Assembly (NCBI GenBank): GCA_001777915.1
Contig: MFFN01000004.1
Span: forward strand, 867,744 to 931,743
Direction of reading: 5' to 3'
From: Candidatus Edwardsbacteria bacterium RifOxyA12_full_54_48
GTDB lineage: Bacteria > Edwardsbacteria > AC1 > EtOH8
Length of the DNA stretch: 64,000 bases
Of the stretch, positions 52,226 to 64,000 are shown piece after piece. The position numbers and the translations under genes are program-made. Under the pieces are notes generated by a model. That model ran no database searches, was not told where the DNA came from, and saw nothing but the letters and a program-made list of their open reading frames with translations. Each line of letters starts with the position of its first letter. Position 1 is the first letter of the stretch.

Positions 52226-52834
52226 ATGGCGGTGATCAAAAATAAAATAAAAAAAATCGGGATCTTCGGGGGCACCTTCGATCCCATCCATTACGGACAC
52301 TTGATAGCCGCCCAGAGCGCCCTGGAGACCCTGGGGCTGGACCGGCTGATATTCGTCCCGGCCGGGAAGCCCCCGCATAAATGCAGCTGGAAGATATCCC
52401 CGCCCGCAATAAGATTTAAAATGGTCAAGCTGGGCATTATGGGCAATAAGTATTTTACTGCTTCAGATATCGAGCTGGCGTCCGACTGCGCCTCGTATAC
52501 CGTAGAAAGCCTGAAGAAGTTAAAAAAAATGTTCCCCGGTTCAGAATTATACCTATTGATCGGCCTGGATCAGGCCTTGGCCCTATCCGCCTGGAGGAAG
52601 CCCGAGGAGATATTAAAAATATGCCAAGTGATGGTTATGTCCCGGCCCGGATACAGTCCTGTGGAGGTTGAGAGCAAATGGAGGAAGGAGACGGGTTTTC
52701 TGCCGGTCCCGCTTATCGAGATCAGCGCTTCAGATATCCGGGGGAGGATCTTTCGCGGTGCCAGCATAGAATACCTGGTGCCCCCCAGTGTCCGACAATA
52801 CATCCAGCAGCAGGGGCTCTATAAAGATAAATGA
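52226..52834 (+). CDS. nadD: nicotinate-nucleotide adenylyltransferase
   Basis: The 202-residue protein has GIFGGTFDPIHYGHLIAAQ near the start, LIGLDQALALSAWRKPEEI and the late ISASDIRGR motif. It makes nicotinic acid adenine dinucleotide from NaMN and ATP. It begins nine bases after bamD and overlaps the ATGA of the next gene, the CNB-protease fusion, by four bases, so the two may be read together. Confidence 0.93.
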   Translation: MAVIKNKIKKIGIFGGTFDPIHYGHLIAAQSALETLGLDRLIFVPAGKPPHKCSWKISPPAIRFKMVKLGIMGNKYFTASDIELASDCASYTVESLKKLKKMFPGSELYLLIGLDQALALSAWRKPEEILKICQVMVMSRPGYSPVEVESKWRKETGFLPVPLIEISASDIRGRIFRGASIEYLVPPSVRQYIQQQGLYKDK

Positions 52835-55800
52835 CGGATTTGCGAGATAAAACGATGGACTCCCAGAATAATAATTCTCCATCATCAATTTCATTCTGGC
52901 AAAATCTGACCGACAAGATGGATTTTGCCAAAAGCCGCCCGGCCATCCGGCCGGGATGCGAGGAGGCCCGTTTTATCAGCCGCGACGGCAAAGAGTTTTA
53001 TGTTCTGAAATCCCCCGGCGGAGTGGGCTATATCCGCCTTTCAGTCAAGGATCATTTCCTGTTCACACTGCTCGACGGCAGCCGGACGGTCCAGGAGGTC
53101 CTGGTGGAGTATTTCAGGAAATACGGCGCCCTGGCCTTCTCCAGGCTGGGGACCCTGGTACAGGAGCTCTTCAAAGGGGGCTTTCTTTCCGAAAGCCCGA
53201 GATCTTTCTACCGCAGGCTTCTCAAGAGGATCAAACTTGACAAACCACTGGTCAAGCTTATTGATCTCTTAAAATCGCTGCCCCGGCGGCAGTGGCCGAT
53301 TGCAAATCTGGACACCGGCATCACCTGGCTGTATGAAAAAGGCTTCAAACTGTTCTATTTCAGGCCGGTGCAGATAGTTGCCGCCGTCTTTTCCCTGGCA
53401 GGGTTATTCATGTTTGCCCACCTATTCAGGGCCGGAGAATACAGCCTGTTTAAATCGTCCGGCTCGGTCGTTTTGGGGCTGGCGGTGCTGGTGCTCCTCA
53501 ATTACGTTTCCATTGTGGCCCATGAGCTCTCACATGCCCTGGCCTGCAAACATTACGGGCGGCGTGTCAACAGCGGCGGTGTGATCATAAATACAGTCTT
53601 TCCGTCCTTCTATGTTGATATCACGGACTCCTGGCTGCTGCCCAAGCGAAAAAGGGTTCTGATATCACTGATAGGGCCTTTCTCCCAGGCATTTATCGCC
53701 GGGGTCCTGTCGGCCGTAATAATGATATTTCCCCATCTTTTCATCAATCCGCTGCTTTATAAATTCGCCTTTCTGTCCTACCTGACGGTGTTCCTCAATC
53801 TCAATCCGTTGCTGGAGCTGGACGGATATTACGTTCTGATAGACTGGCTGGAGATCCCGGGCCTTAAGGCCAAGGCCTCCGATTTCGTCAAGAAACGGTT
53901 ATGGCCTAAGATCAGGACCAGAGAGCCGTTTAGCTGGCAGGACAAGGTCTTCACGGCCTACGGCCTGGGCGCCATCATTTGGTCGGCTCTGGCCCTGGCC
54001 ATCGTGGGGTATTTCTGGCGGATAAGAGCCCAGCAGATAGGGAGCCATTTATTCAACGCTACCAGCCAGCAGCTGCGCCTGATCCTTCTATTGGGAGTTG
54101 GTGTGATAATCTTGGCGGCAATGGGAGCTGCTTATAAAAAGATAAAACTTATGGCGGTCAGCCTCTGGAGGGGCTTTACCGACCTGATATATCGCAGACC
54201 GGCAGCCATGGCCGGCGCCCTTTTCTTTTTATGCCTGCTGGGCAGCTTCATTTACAGCCATATTCAAGGCTGGCCGGCCATCGCCATCTCAATCACCTTT
54301 GCCCTGGTGCTGGGGGCGCTTTCCCAGAGGGTTTATTCCTATTATAAAGGATCTTCATTGTGGCTGGTGTTGATGGGGCTTCTTCTGGCGGCCCTGGGAA
54401 GCCTATTCATAAAGATATTTCCGGTTGGCCTTCGGCCGGCCGTTTGGCTGATCGGGTCGGTGGCATTGTTTGCCGCCACCTATACCCAATTTTCCTTTTC
54501 CAGCCTGCGCCGCTGGCGGCAGTGGCAGCGGGTATTGTGGGGCGGGCTGTGGTTCGGAATACTGGTATTGCTGGGGTATTTTCACGGGATGTCCACTTGG
54601 CGGACCCTGGCCATAATGCTTTCCACCACCGCCTTTCTGATGCTGTTGTCGCTGGTGTGGCACAACATGGGCTCTTCGCTGGAATATTTTTGGATATACT
54701 TTTTGCTTGGCATCATCTCTTGGAACATCATACTTATATTTTCGCTATTCAATTTTGGTTTTCTTGCCGCGCTGCTTTTGGTGTTTGCCGTGTTTTGGCT
54801 GTATTTGATAATAAAAAGCGCCCGCTGGCTCCCGGAGAGCGCAAGCTTTGAACCGGCATCGTCCGAAAAAAGAAGGATGCGCCAGGCCGCCGTAAAGATC
54901 TACCGGATGGCAAGCAGTTATTTTGCCTCGTTTTTCGGCCAGGGGCAGGCCCGGGCGATGGACGACCGCCTTAATCTGATCATGATAGAAAAGAACTGGC
55001 CGATCCGCCTTTACGGCAACCGAAGCGAGGAACGATTTGAGCGCAGTACCGGTATAGTCGACCGGAGCCAGGCTTTCCGGGGCATGCTGGATGAAGTGTT
55101 GAATTACCTTTCCCATGAGGTGGGCGATTATTTTGCCAGGAATACAATAAAAACGGCCTATCAAAGCCTTTATTGGGAGGAGCGGGAGATAGCCCAGCAG
55201 TACTTGATGAAGGGTTCTCTGTGGGCCAGGGATATGGCTGTGGCCAATCTCAAACAGGAGAAGCGTGACGCCCAGAATGTCATTGCCGGGGTGGCAAGGT
55301 TTTGGGAATTGGGCGAAGAGGAAACAACCCTGTTCTATTCCCACCTCAAGGAGGAAAGGGTCCGTTCCGGAGAGATGATCATAAGACAGGGCGAACCGGG
55401 CGACAAGTTCTATATCATTAAATCCGGCCAGGTGGAGGTGGTAATCTCCCGCAAAGGCGAGCCCGATCTGATGGCGGCCAACCTTTCCCGCGGGGATTAT
55501 TTCGGCGAGATAGCCCTGATCAAGAACGTCCCCCGAACCGCGTCGGTAAGAGCCGTGGCCGACTGCTCCCTGTTGGTTCTGGAACGGAAGGATTTCGAGT
55601 CCCTGATGGCCAGAAAGGTGGATCTGGCGGTCCGGATCGATCGGCTGATAGAGAACCGGGGCTTTCTGATAAAACTGCCGCTATTTTCCGAGTTCGCTCC
55701 GGCTCAAGTGGCTATGGCCGCCTCCCGTCTGGTTCCTGAAAGATACCACCCCGGACAACCGGTAATAATTCAAGGGGAAATTGGCGACAGTTTTTTCATC

Positions 55801-56073
55801 ATCAAAGAGGGCCGCTTGGACGTCCTGGTGATGAAGGACGGACAGAAGAACAAGGTGGCCGAACTGGGTCCCGGCGAGTATTTTGGCGAGATAGCCTTGC
55901 TGCTTGATGTTCCTCGCACGGCCGATGTAGTGGCCGTTACGGAATGCCTGGTGCTCCGGCTCCATAAGGACGACTTTAAAAGTCTTTTAGGGGAGCAGCT
56001 GTATTTTGCCAAGAGCTTGGAGAGGACATCAAGCCGGAGGATGAGCGATACCAGGCACAAGATAAGTTTTTAG
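52831..56073 (+). CDS. PqqD-like / M50-type membrane metalloprotease fused to two cyclic-nucleotide-binding domains
   Basis: This 1080-residue protein has an N-terminal PqqD-like domain (about 35-125; FYVLKSPGGVGYIRLS, FTLLDGSRTVQEVL), then about a dozen transmembrane segments. The M50-type zinc site is HELSH (His231-His235), with the second motif LNPLLELDGYY (Asp331) in a later helix. More membrane helices (about 375-665) and a soluble linker follow. Two CNB domains close the protein (about 850-955 and 960-1070), each with an intact phosphate cassette: YFGEIALIKNVPRTA (Glu893) and YFGEIALLLDVPRTA (Glu1020). The cassette Arg is present in both. It may be a cyclic-nucleotide-gated membrane protease, or a transporter-like relative. 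ATG 52855 is an alternative start. Confidence 0.85.
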   Translation: MTDLRDKTMDSQNNNSPSSISFWQNLTDKMDFAKSRPAIRPGCEEARFISRDGKEFYVLKSPGGVGYIRLSVKDHFLFTLLDGSRTVQEVLVEYFRKYGALAFSRLGTLVQELFKGGFLSESPRSFYRRLLKRIKLDKPLVKLIDLLKSLPRRQWPIANLDTGITWLYEKGFKLFYFRPVQIVAAVFSLAGLFMFAHLFRAGEYSLFKSSGSVVLGLAVLVLLNYVSIVAHELSHALACKHYGRRVNSGGVIINTVFPSFYVDITDSWLLPKRKRVLISLIGPFSQAFIAGVLSAVIMIFPHLFINPLLYKFAFLSYLTVFLNLNPLLELDGYYVLIDWLEIPGLKAKASDFVKKRLWPKIRTREPFSWQDKVFTAYGLGAIIWSALALAIVGYFWRIRAQQIGSHLFNATSQQLRLILLLGVGVIILAAMGAAYKKIKLMAVSLWRGFTDLIYRRPAAMAGALFFLCLLGSFIYSHIQGWPAIAISITFALVLGALSQRVYSYYKGSSLWLVLMGLLLAALGSLFIKIFPVGLRPAVWLIGSVALFAATYTQFSFSSLRRWRQWQRVLWGGLWFGILVLLGYFHGMSTWRTLAIMLSTTAFLMLLSLVWHNMGSSLEYFWIYFLLGIISWNIILIFSLFNFGFLAALLLVFAVFWLYLIIKSARWLPESASFEPASSEKRRMRQAAVKIYRMASSYFASFFGQGQARAMDDRLNLIMIEKNWPIRLYGNRSEERFERSTGIVDRSQAFRGMLDEVLNYLSHEVGDYFARNTIKTAYQSLYWEEREIAQQYLMKGSLWARDMAVANLKQEKRDAQNVIAGVARFWELGEEETTLFYSHLKEERVRSGEMIIRQGEPGDKFYIIKSGQVEVVISRKGEPDLMAANLSRGDYFGEIALIKNVPRTASVRAVADCSLLVLERKDFESLMARKVDLAVRIDRLIENRGFLIKLPLFSEFAPAQVAMAASRLVPERYHPGQPVIIQGEIGDSFFIIKEGRLDVLVMKDGQKNKVAELGPGEYFGEIALLLDVPRTADVVAVTECLVLRLHKDDFKSLLGEQLYFAKSLERTSSRRMSDTRHKISF

Positions 56074-62067: not shown

Positions 62068-64000
62068 TTATCTCAACAGGGTGATCTTTTGGGTCAAGCA
62101 ACCTTGGCCCGAAGTCAGGCGGTAGAAATATACGCCATTGGACAGGTTCCGTCCGTTGTCATCGGTGCCGGTCCAGTTGGCGGCATAGCTGCCGGGCTGT
62201 TTGACCTCGTCAAATAGGGTCTTCACCAGATGCCCGCAGATATCGTAAACCTTTAGCGCCATCCTCTCCTGCCGGCTGGTGCTGTAGCGGATCTGGCAGC
62301 TGTTGTTGAATGGGTTGGGCATGGCCCTTAAGCTGTATGAATAGATATCGGCTGCCTCCGGGATGTTCACCAGCACCGGTCCGTACCATTCGGTGGCGCC
62401 AAGATTGTCCAGGGCTCCCAGGCGATACAGGTAATCTTGTCCCGGCAGGGCCGAATTATCCTGGTAGCTGTAATCCGAACCAGAGCCTGTCCCTTTCAGC
62501 TCAGCCAGGCGGGTATATATTTTTCCGTCGTCTGAGGATCGTTCCACCAGCCACAGATTGTGCTCCTCCTCCAGACCGCTCCGCCAGGCCAGGTTTACAC
62601 TTCCCTGTTCGAAAGCCGCAGCAAACATAGATAACTCCACCGCCATGGGAGTGGCAATGGCTCGGGGAGATACCCCGGCAGCCAGGCTGTTGAATTGGTA
62701 GTAAGAGCCGTACTTGGCCGGCACCTTGGCGCCCTTGGTGGTGATGGAATTTGTAGTTGGGAAGGCGTTCCATGGATTGTCGCTGGTTTCATATTGGGAA
62801 ACCGCCAAAAACTTAAATACATTGCCCACGGTGTATTTTAAATAACTAAAGGGCACCCGCATTTCAGCGTAGGTGTACTTATTGATGCTGTCCAGATAGG
62901 GCCTATTGGCTGCAAGATAGGCTGCTATGGTAACTGAATCAACCCAGGCTGAACCGTTCCATTTCTTTAAAGAAATGGAGTCGGCATTTTCAAAAACCAG
63001 GCAGAAATCTGGCCGGAAATTGACATCGAATCCGGCGGATCCGGTGCCGTTGTATTTGAAAGTTGAGTCGGCCCCTCCGGTGCGGGTGTCAAAATAAAAT
63101 AGCAAATCACCGGCTGTGCGCCAGTCATTGCGGCCGTAACCCAAGTATAGATTGGATGCATCCCACGTGGTAAATAGTGTGTCCCTTGAACCCACTGCTC
63201 CAATCCGTGTGCCGATCCGTTCGCTTTTGCAGAAATCATTTACGGCGCCGAATGTAACATAACCCAATCTTATCGTATGGGGAGTTACAGTATCTCCTGA
63301 AGCCACTATGCGGGGTTCGTTGCCCAAAGTTCCCCACCGAGTGGGAGAACTTTCATCTCCGGCTTTTAAGGCAAATATCAAGGTATCTCCCGGAGCAAAG
63401 CCGTAAACAGTTTTCTTCTCAAGCACACCAGCATTTGCTGGCGCCCAAGTCTGGTAATATGTAGAACCAGTGTCGATAAAATCGGTTTCGGAACTTATCT
63501 TGCCCAAGTCGGAAACAGCGGAATTGTACTTGGAATATTTCAGCCAGTATTTACTGGCTTTCTCTGTCAAAGCATCATCGCTGACAGCGGTCCACGAAAG
63601 TTCTACGGTGCCCTCAATGGTGCCGGTGTATACCGAATCCACCAGGTCAACGATCGGTTCCGGTTCAACGTTGAACCCCTGGTAGGCTAATATCCGGCGG
63701 GTCAGTTCGGAAGCGGTGCTGGGATGAATGCCGTTGCTCAACGACCCGATGGAGAAGGTCAAATAGACGTTATTGTGGTTGGAAGCTTTCTCTCCCTTGT
63801 AGTAGCTTCCATAGGTGGTGGCCCGGCCGTAGGTGATCTTGCCGGGACCTTCGCTCTCCATCAGCAACTGGCTCCCGGTCAACTTCGGTGAGATGATATC
63901 CACCGAATTATCAGGCCCCTGCTGGAAAGGATAGTCGAAATACATGCCCTCGGTGAATGTGCCGGCAATGCCGTTTATCTTCTGAATGTTGCCTGTTTCC
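62068..64000 (-). CDS. secreted protein with C-terminal sorting domain, N-terminus beyond window
   Basis: At least 643 residues are encoded, and the frame is open through the right edge (the first in-window ATG at 63943-63945 lies inside the gene, so the true start is outside). The early part contains SDDALTEKASKYWLKYSKYN, fibronectin-like, and a middle carbohydrate-binding or catalytic-like section with repeated aromatic residues. A second fibronectin-like segment is at about residues 455-540 of the in-window part. The last 85 residues are a sorting-type beta-sandwich (AMPNPFNNSCQIRYS, LKVYDICGHLVKTL, NGVYFYRLTSGQ, TQKITLLR). It may be a surface protease or adhesin; no active site is visible. 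Confidence 0.75.
   Translation of the reverse strand, partial: ETGNIQKINGIAGTFTEGMYFDYPFQQGPDNSVDIISPKLTGSQLLMESEGPGKITYGRATTYGSYYKGEKASNHNNVYLTFSIGSLSNGIHPSTASELTRRILAYQGFNVEPEPIVDLVDSVYTGTIEGTVELSWTAVSDDALTEKASKYWLKYSKYNSAVSDLGKISSETDFIDTGSTYYQTWAPANAGVLEKKTVYGFAPGDTLIFALKAGDESSPTRWGTLGNEPRIVASGDTVTPHTIRLGYVTFGAVNDFCKSERIGTRIGAVGSRDTLFTTWDASNLYLGYGRNDWRTAGDLLFYFDTRTGGADSTFKYNGTGSAGFDVNFRPDFCLVFENADSISLKKWNGSAWVDSVTIAAYLAANRPYLDSINKYTYAEMRVPFSYLKYTVGNVFKFLAVSQYETSDNPWNAFPTTNSITTKGAKVPAKYGSYYQFNSLAAGVSPRAIATPMAVELSMFAAAFEQGSVNLAWRSGLEEEHNLWLVERSSDDGKIYTRLAELKGTGSGSDYSYQDNSALPGQDYLYRLGALDNLGATEWYGPVLVNIPEAADIYSYSLRAMPNPFNNSCQIRYSTSRQERMALKVYDICGHLVKTLFDEVKQPGSYAANWTGTDDNGRNLSNGVYFYRLTSGQGCLTQKITLLR

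Follow-up and report, generated by a model that had tools for sequence, protein, structure and literature searches.

An M50 membrane protease joined to cyclic-nucleotide-binding domains in Edwardsbacteria and its association with Os1348-family precursor-like proteins

M50 proteases and RiPP recognition elements (RREs) are known from pathways for ribosomally synthesized and post-translationally modified peptides (RiPPs), and site-2 proteases bearing CBS domains have also been described. We analysed a 64-kb stretch of the genome of Candidatus Edwardsbacteria bacterium RifOxyA12_full_54_48 (hereafter the window), in which a single frame of 1080 codons, ATG to stop, encodes from N to C terminus an RRE/PqqD-like domain, an M50 core, additional transmembrane helices, a cytosolic linker and two cyclic-nucleotide-binding (CNB) domains (Table 1). 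Its best curated matches over the core are RiPP-pathway intramembrane M50 metalloproteases, namely EpeP/YydH-LiaK of epipeptide pathways (NF058609) and the daptide HExxH proteases (NF041824); the curated models, however, cover no CNB domain, and no epipeptide or daptide precursor was seen here. The pearlin enzymes TglG/TmoG are likewise membrane M50 proteases, acting on a scaffold peptide (PMC10885120, which reviews the M50 proteases of the epipeptide and pearlin pathways), and one genome with a related protein (G585) has an MbnB/TglH-type neighbour, but no pearlin gene set was seen in the Edwardsbacteria loci read and the text of PMC10885120 is without a cyclic-nucleotide domain. Peptide-export proteins of the RRE(PqqD)-M50-HlyD type share the N-terminal RRE-M50 core at 25-30 % identity, although a HlyD barrel replaces the CNB domains. 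SpoIVFB and mjS2P similarly combine an M50 core with a C-terminal nucleotide-type regulatory domain, but this is a CBS domain, whereas the window protein has CNB domains, an N-terminal RRE and more transmembrane helices. Finally, TIGR03896 (cyc_nuc_ocin) by its model name ties CNB proteins to bacteriocin-type export, yet the similarity lies in the CNB part alone (73 bits against a cut-off of 161) and the model has no protease or RRE. The main text of RRE-Finder lists new RRE fusions and does not mention M50 or cyclic-nucleotide domains among them; in the open-access literature, a scope that makes this weak evidence, we found neither an M50 protease gated by cyclic nucleotides nor a CNB domain linked to RiPP leader processing.

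For the window protein, peptide proteolysis gated by cyclic AMP (cAMP), as proposed in an earlier note on this DNA made from the sequence alone, is the best-supported reading. We consider it slightly better than an even bet that the protein is an RRE-equipped, cAMP-gated M50 peptidase that processes precursors of the Os1348/NHLP clan, proteins of the Os1348 type being the likely substrate because this branch of proteases both co-occurs with and adjoins their genes. This substrate lead and the breadth of the protein family both go beyond the earlier note.

Os1348 itself is an experimentally studied precursor-like protein of 85 aa, the level of which depends on downstream genes (PMC7726476). At two loci outside Edwardsbacteria (G365 and G094) a small gene ahead of the M50 and CNB genes belongs to NF038399, the NCBIfam model for the Os1348 family of the NHLP clan, with 64.8 bits in G365 and 31.9 bits, below the cut-off of 40, in G094. 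A regular-expression search for precursor-like neighbours found just two; the remainder came from NF038399 and from a profile, made from the Edwardsbacteria proteins and two outside ones, that was run over all open reading frames (ORFs) of the loci examined. Profile matches neighboured the protease gene, in the same orientation, in G139, G488 and G587 (two each), G709, G585, G527, G442 and G136, with best E-values per locus of 3e-9 to 2e-4; together with G365 and G094, Os1348-family genes adjoin the RRE-M50/CNB gene, on its strand, in 10 genomes of 8 families. The neighbour exceeds the curated NF038399 cut-off in eight of these ten genomes, and in an independent NF038399 scan 9/10 ORFs tested did so, whereas a profile search of the ORFs of six HlyD-type M50 loci returned no Os1348-family gene. 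At the G585 locus an MbnB/TglH/ChrH RiPP enzyme is adjacent (E=2e-62), and a TPR protein, a P450 and an aldo/keto reductase belong to the same gene run.

The association was also visible across whole genomes. With presence set at E<=1e-5, NF038399 was found in 27/30 genomes with the RRE-M50 family vs 8/55 genomes without it, the latter being genomes with no match in the M50 searches. Ten of the 30 were already known to have NF038399 when chosen; among the 20 chosen regardless of peptides it was present in 17 (Fisher test, 2.7e-8), in tests that are not fully corrected for relatedness, and this peptide-blind set counted by family gave 8/11 vs 8/43 (p=0.0012). The three family genomes without NF038399 are two that have lost HExxH (G197 and G277) and one in which no CNB domain was detected (G075), a pattern noticed after the fact.

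Within Edwardsbacteria, exactly one copy of the RRE-M50-CNB gene was present in each of 10 genomes from four genera. As the nine other copies are full-length at 50-92 % identity to the window protein, the fusion is not a product of chance; a chance or frameshift joining of domains is thereby ruled out, and the single open frame of 1080 residues with no frameshift sign, as first described, is confirmed. Nine of the ten genomes additionally encode an Os1348-type protein of ~143 aa (four over the NF038399 cut-off); its N-terminus is of the NHLP type, its GLDQR[LV]S block is nearly invariant and its acidic tail is conserved. In three of them this gene and the protease gene share a strand and are 1.6-2.2 kb apart: the order is protease, TPR gene, Os1348-type gene in both G004 and G007, whilst in G006 the Os1348-type gene is 1.6 kb past the protease. 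On its 5' side, the start ATG of the protease gene in the window overlaps the stop of a nadD-like gene by 4 bp (ATGA), and the bamD-nadD order at this locus is conserved in genera g1, g3 and g4. This operon-like linkage to a housekeeping context, the single-copy, phylum-wide occurrence and the precedent of C-terminal nucleotide-type domains on site-2 proteases (the CBS domains of SpoIVFB and mjS2P; PMC11486902) would suit another explanation, in which a cAMP-gated site-2 protease serves membrane-protein signalling or quality control (anti-sigma factors, signal peptides or surface proteins) and the link to Os1348 is secondary or reflects another task. We regard this as unlikely, given the repeated same-strand adjacency in eight families, the lack of Os1348 genes in genomes that have lost the protease motif and the RRE-like fold of the N-terminus.

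The protease core itself matched NF041824 over residues 56-414 (E=9e-41), although at 140 bits it falls below the equivalog cut-off of 300, as does its NF058609 score of 63 bits against 225; Pfam M50 (PF02163) scored 18-20 bits, under the gathering score of 27.2. The earlier note had paired an M50 HELSH site with LDGYY, and this was upheld: a profile of the family places HELSH and the Asp of LDGYY onto the HELGH and the MDGG Asp of the site-2 protease 3b4r (E=1.8e-4), and D331, the predicted third zinc ligand, is invariant in 42/42 homologues retaining HExxH. The sequence thus holds both HExxH and a third-ligand Asp within a DG motif, the combination expected of a site-2-type M50 protease, and H, E, H and D are conserved in every Edwardsbacteria copy. 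A full-length AlphaFold model from six sequences was poor (mean predicted local distance difference test score, pLDDT, of 54) and too weak to judge the zinc site, its Foldseek matches being exclusively CNB proteins; for this reason it is the homology to 3b4r, and not the model, that places the two motifs together, and from the alignment we take them to share one zinc site. Hydropathy and the low-confidence model predict ~14 transmembrane helices, more than in a minimal M50 protein. A match of the extra helices to YetJ (E about 0.02) was weak and was judged to be chance similarity between hydrophobic helices. HExxH is lost or altered (absent, QELGH, HQLVH), with a fused or adjacent CNB retained, in members from G197 (L083), G277 (L085) and G094 (L076); it is gone in the first two, and the G094 gene reads HQLVH. 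Such members are possibly regulatory pseudo-proteases. Their persistence and the excess of helices could also be taken to mean that the M50 part works in export or immunity instead of proteolysis, with a metal site for transport or binding, which we consider very improbable in view of the four residues kept throughout Edwardsbacteria and of the invariant D331.

The domain ahead of the core had been called PqqD-like in the earlier note, which holds for its fold but not for family membership. Modelled separately, residues 36-132 (pLDDT 85) show the RRE order of three strands followed by three helices, a winged fold, and the best PDB matches were chains of the lasso-peptide RRE TbiB1 bound to its leader (Foldseek; TM-score 0.65, probability 1.00, E only 0.0075). 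Pfam PqqD (PF05402) found no match in the window protein and one weak match (E=0.006) among 8 family members. As Pfam gave no match and the nearest fold was leader-bound TbiB1, we describe the domain as RRE-like and not as a PqqD member.

At the other end of the protein, PF00027 matched over two stretches (E=5e-51, 171 bits, over the cut-off), and both of the CNB domains described earlier proved to have complete phosphate-binding cassettes with the Glu and Arg in place: FGEIALIKNVPRTA (to residue 904, with the motif GEIALIKNVPRTA at 892) in the first and FGEIALLLDVPRTA (to residue 1031, with GEIALLLDVPRTA at 1019) in the second. We looked for degradation in close relatives; catalytic motifs and both cassettes were intact wherever the Edwardsbacteria copies could be read, G005 having N in its assembly, and hence X, at the second cassette. 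Complete cassettes were also seen in G097, G052, G709, G585, G593, G617, G497b and others. The linker ahead of the CNB pair is as conserved among Edwardsbacteria as the known domains, and its W-x-[ED]-R-E motif is present too in long-form homologues outside the phylum. With regard to the ligand, class III cyclases were present in 10/10 Edwardsbacteria genomes, and one is encoded in the window 3' of the protease gene, beside two single-CNB genes on opposite strands; it has adenylate-type substrate residues (K in DKFMGD and D in VIGDGVN) and is likely the source of cAMP. The Lys/Asp substrate rule is well established for class III cyclases, and among the three in this genome the adenylate-typical Lys occurs in 3/3 and the Asp in 2/3, residues that favour cAMP as the CNB ligand. 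This neighbourhood of cyclase and CNB genes is kept in genus g1, and the cyclase with one CNB gene lies near in G005; it was not kept in the loci compared from genera g2 and g4.

Related M50 proteins were present in 37 genomes outside the phylum, from a sample of 386 genomes, and in 54/301 genomes of the G069 phylum. Reading of full frames revealed four layouts: a long C-terminal CNB form (Edwardsbacteria, G097, G052 and family f61), a shorter C-terminal CNB form (e.g. G497b, G527, G593, G442 and G617), an N-terminal CNB form (G136, G139, G497 and G705) and one with CNB as a separate, overlapping gene (G365 and G094). The joining of M50 and CNB domains reported earlier therefore not only stands but recurs beyond the window protein, and is the rule across many families of a broad RRE-M50 branch. 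A tree built from 47 cores has a supported branch (98/92) that parts the CNB-bearing proteins from nine HlyD-type or similar M50s; L077 (G075) and L081 (G365), which carry no fused CNB, group with the former. On this tree the CNB label required 2 changes vs 10 in shuffles. A single origin of the CNB-bearing branch is likely but not proven, as its internal support is moderate and it includes some long branches. Searches for protease relatives found none in viral contigs, and in plasmids only CNB matches, none of them spanning most of the protein.

Taken together, fusion and association suggest a cell-signal-gated release of ribosomal peptides. The RRE would bind the helical leader peptide of a precursor of the Os1348/NHLP clan (in the window genome probably the 143-aa protein), the membrane-embedded site-2-type zinc site would cut the precursor at the membrane, with GLDQR[LMV]S, a block that follows the leader, as a candidate region, and the C-terminal piece would be released or exported. 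Class III cyclases would make the cAMP sensed by the two CNB domains, and its binding may alter the W-x-[ED]-R-E linker and hence access to the protease site; this linker-based switch is proposed because in SpoIVFB the linker between the transmembrane and CBS domains contacts substrate (PMC11486902). From sequence we infer cleavage of the Os1348-type protein as substrate, and cAMP as the ligand, binding of which switches the protease with a sign that we do not predict. The wider proposal, that cAMP-switched RRE-M50-CNB peptidases in several phyla free products from Os1348/NHLP-clan proteins and so tie RiPP-type maturation to signalling state, we hold more tentatively, at somewhat less than even chances. 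If cAMP-gated processing is right, it would allow an intramembrane protease to be addressed directly with a small molecule, supply a substrate for a large M50 branch for which we found no described function and assign a likely role to the Os1348 family, and it would mean that a signal-linked peptide system is fixed throughout the uncultured phylum Edwardsbacteria.

Several observations weigh against cAMP-gated processing of Os1348-type precursors. In the window genome the candidate substrate gene shares the contig with the protease gene but is ~311 kb away, outside the operon; its product scores 38-39 bits with NF038399, just under the cut-off, and no RiPP-modifying enzyme was seen beside it. 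Within the G069 phylum the association by family is weak (6/6 vs 6/13, p=0.04). The Thr in PRTA leaves cyclic GMP possible as ligand, and in every copy examined of the more distant family f61 (loci L072, L073 and L115-L122; long form) the second CNB domain has lost its phosphate-binding Arg, therefore cAMP gating may not be universal. That f61 nevertheless keeps the architecture would be expected if, in the same peptidase-substrate pair, the CNB domains were docking or dimerization modules and activity were constitutive or set by substrate supply, and NCBIfam models place CNB domains in family 2B encapsulins and bacteriocin-transport-associated proteins, model names that give no ligand role. 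Drift of the cassettes would be expected under such a scheme if binding were unselected, and yet they are complete in all readable Edwardsbacteria copies and many others; we therefore give it roughly one chance in four.

Table 1. Features of the RRE-M50-CNB protein, its neighbours and the candidate substrate (window coordinates unless stated)
Feature	Position	Strand	Basis
nadD-like cytidylyltransferase, 5' of RRE-M50-CNB gene	52226..52834	+	Pfam, locus comparison
RRE-M50-CNB-CNB protein, 1080 aa	52831..56073	+	ORF, 10/10 Edwardsbacteria genomes
RRE/PqqD-like domain, residues 44-119	52960..53187	+	AF2 pLDDT 85, Foldseek
M50 core, residues 161-400	53311..54030	+	NF041824 E=9e-41, 3b4r alignment
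HELSH zinc/catalytic motif, residues 231-235 (H231-E-L-S-H235)	53521..53535	+	HExxH in all ten Edwardsbacteria
LDGYY motif, residues 330-334; D331 predicted third zinc ligand	53818..53832	+	3b4r alignment, conservation
Additional transmembrane helices, residues 410-667	54058..54831	+	Hydropathy; helices in low-confidence model
Conserved cytosolic helical linker, residues 676-838, with W782-E-E-R-E786	54856..55344	+	Alignment
CNB domain 1, residues 842-928, E893 and R902 intact	55354..55614	+	PF00027, motif reading
CNB domain 2, residues 969-1056, E1020 and R1029 intact	55735..55998	+	PF00027, motif reading
Stand-alone CNB protein, 152 aa	56865..57323	-	Locus reading
Stand-alone CNB protein, 150 aa	57362..57814	+	Pfam
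Class III nucleotide cyclase-AAA-TPR protein, 1254 aa	58246..62010	+	PF00211 E=3e-30
Os1348-type protein of the window genome, 143 aa, outside window	G000:C4:609424-609855 = L149:8925-9356	+	NF038399, 38-39 bits (cut-off 40)

The 143-aa protein also matched Pfam Frankia_peptide (E=5e-8), below its cut-off, and beyond G585 no RiPP-modifying enzyme was found beside these genes, none being seen in the Edwardsbacteria loci read. In G365 a cluster of four Os1348-family matches, one with an in-frame stop, was found on a different contig from the M50 gene (G365:C39:47052-49305). TPR proteins recur in unrelated genomes as neighbours of the protease or of the Os1348-type gene (L030:6548-8338, L031:10248-11702, L154:4277-5716, L124:8792-9721 and L126:7129-8040), and a FecR-domain gene accompanies the Os1348-type gene in some loci. 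A gene for a giant secreted protein, with FlgD_ig, Big_5 or a secretion tail in those scanned, directly follows the Os1348-type gene in loci from eight genomes. A giant surface protein is represented in the window by its C-terminal part at 62068-63945 (reverse strand); it has FlgD_ig and a type IX-like sorting tail and is homologous to the proteins that come after the Os1348-type gene in G004 and G007.

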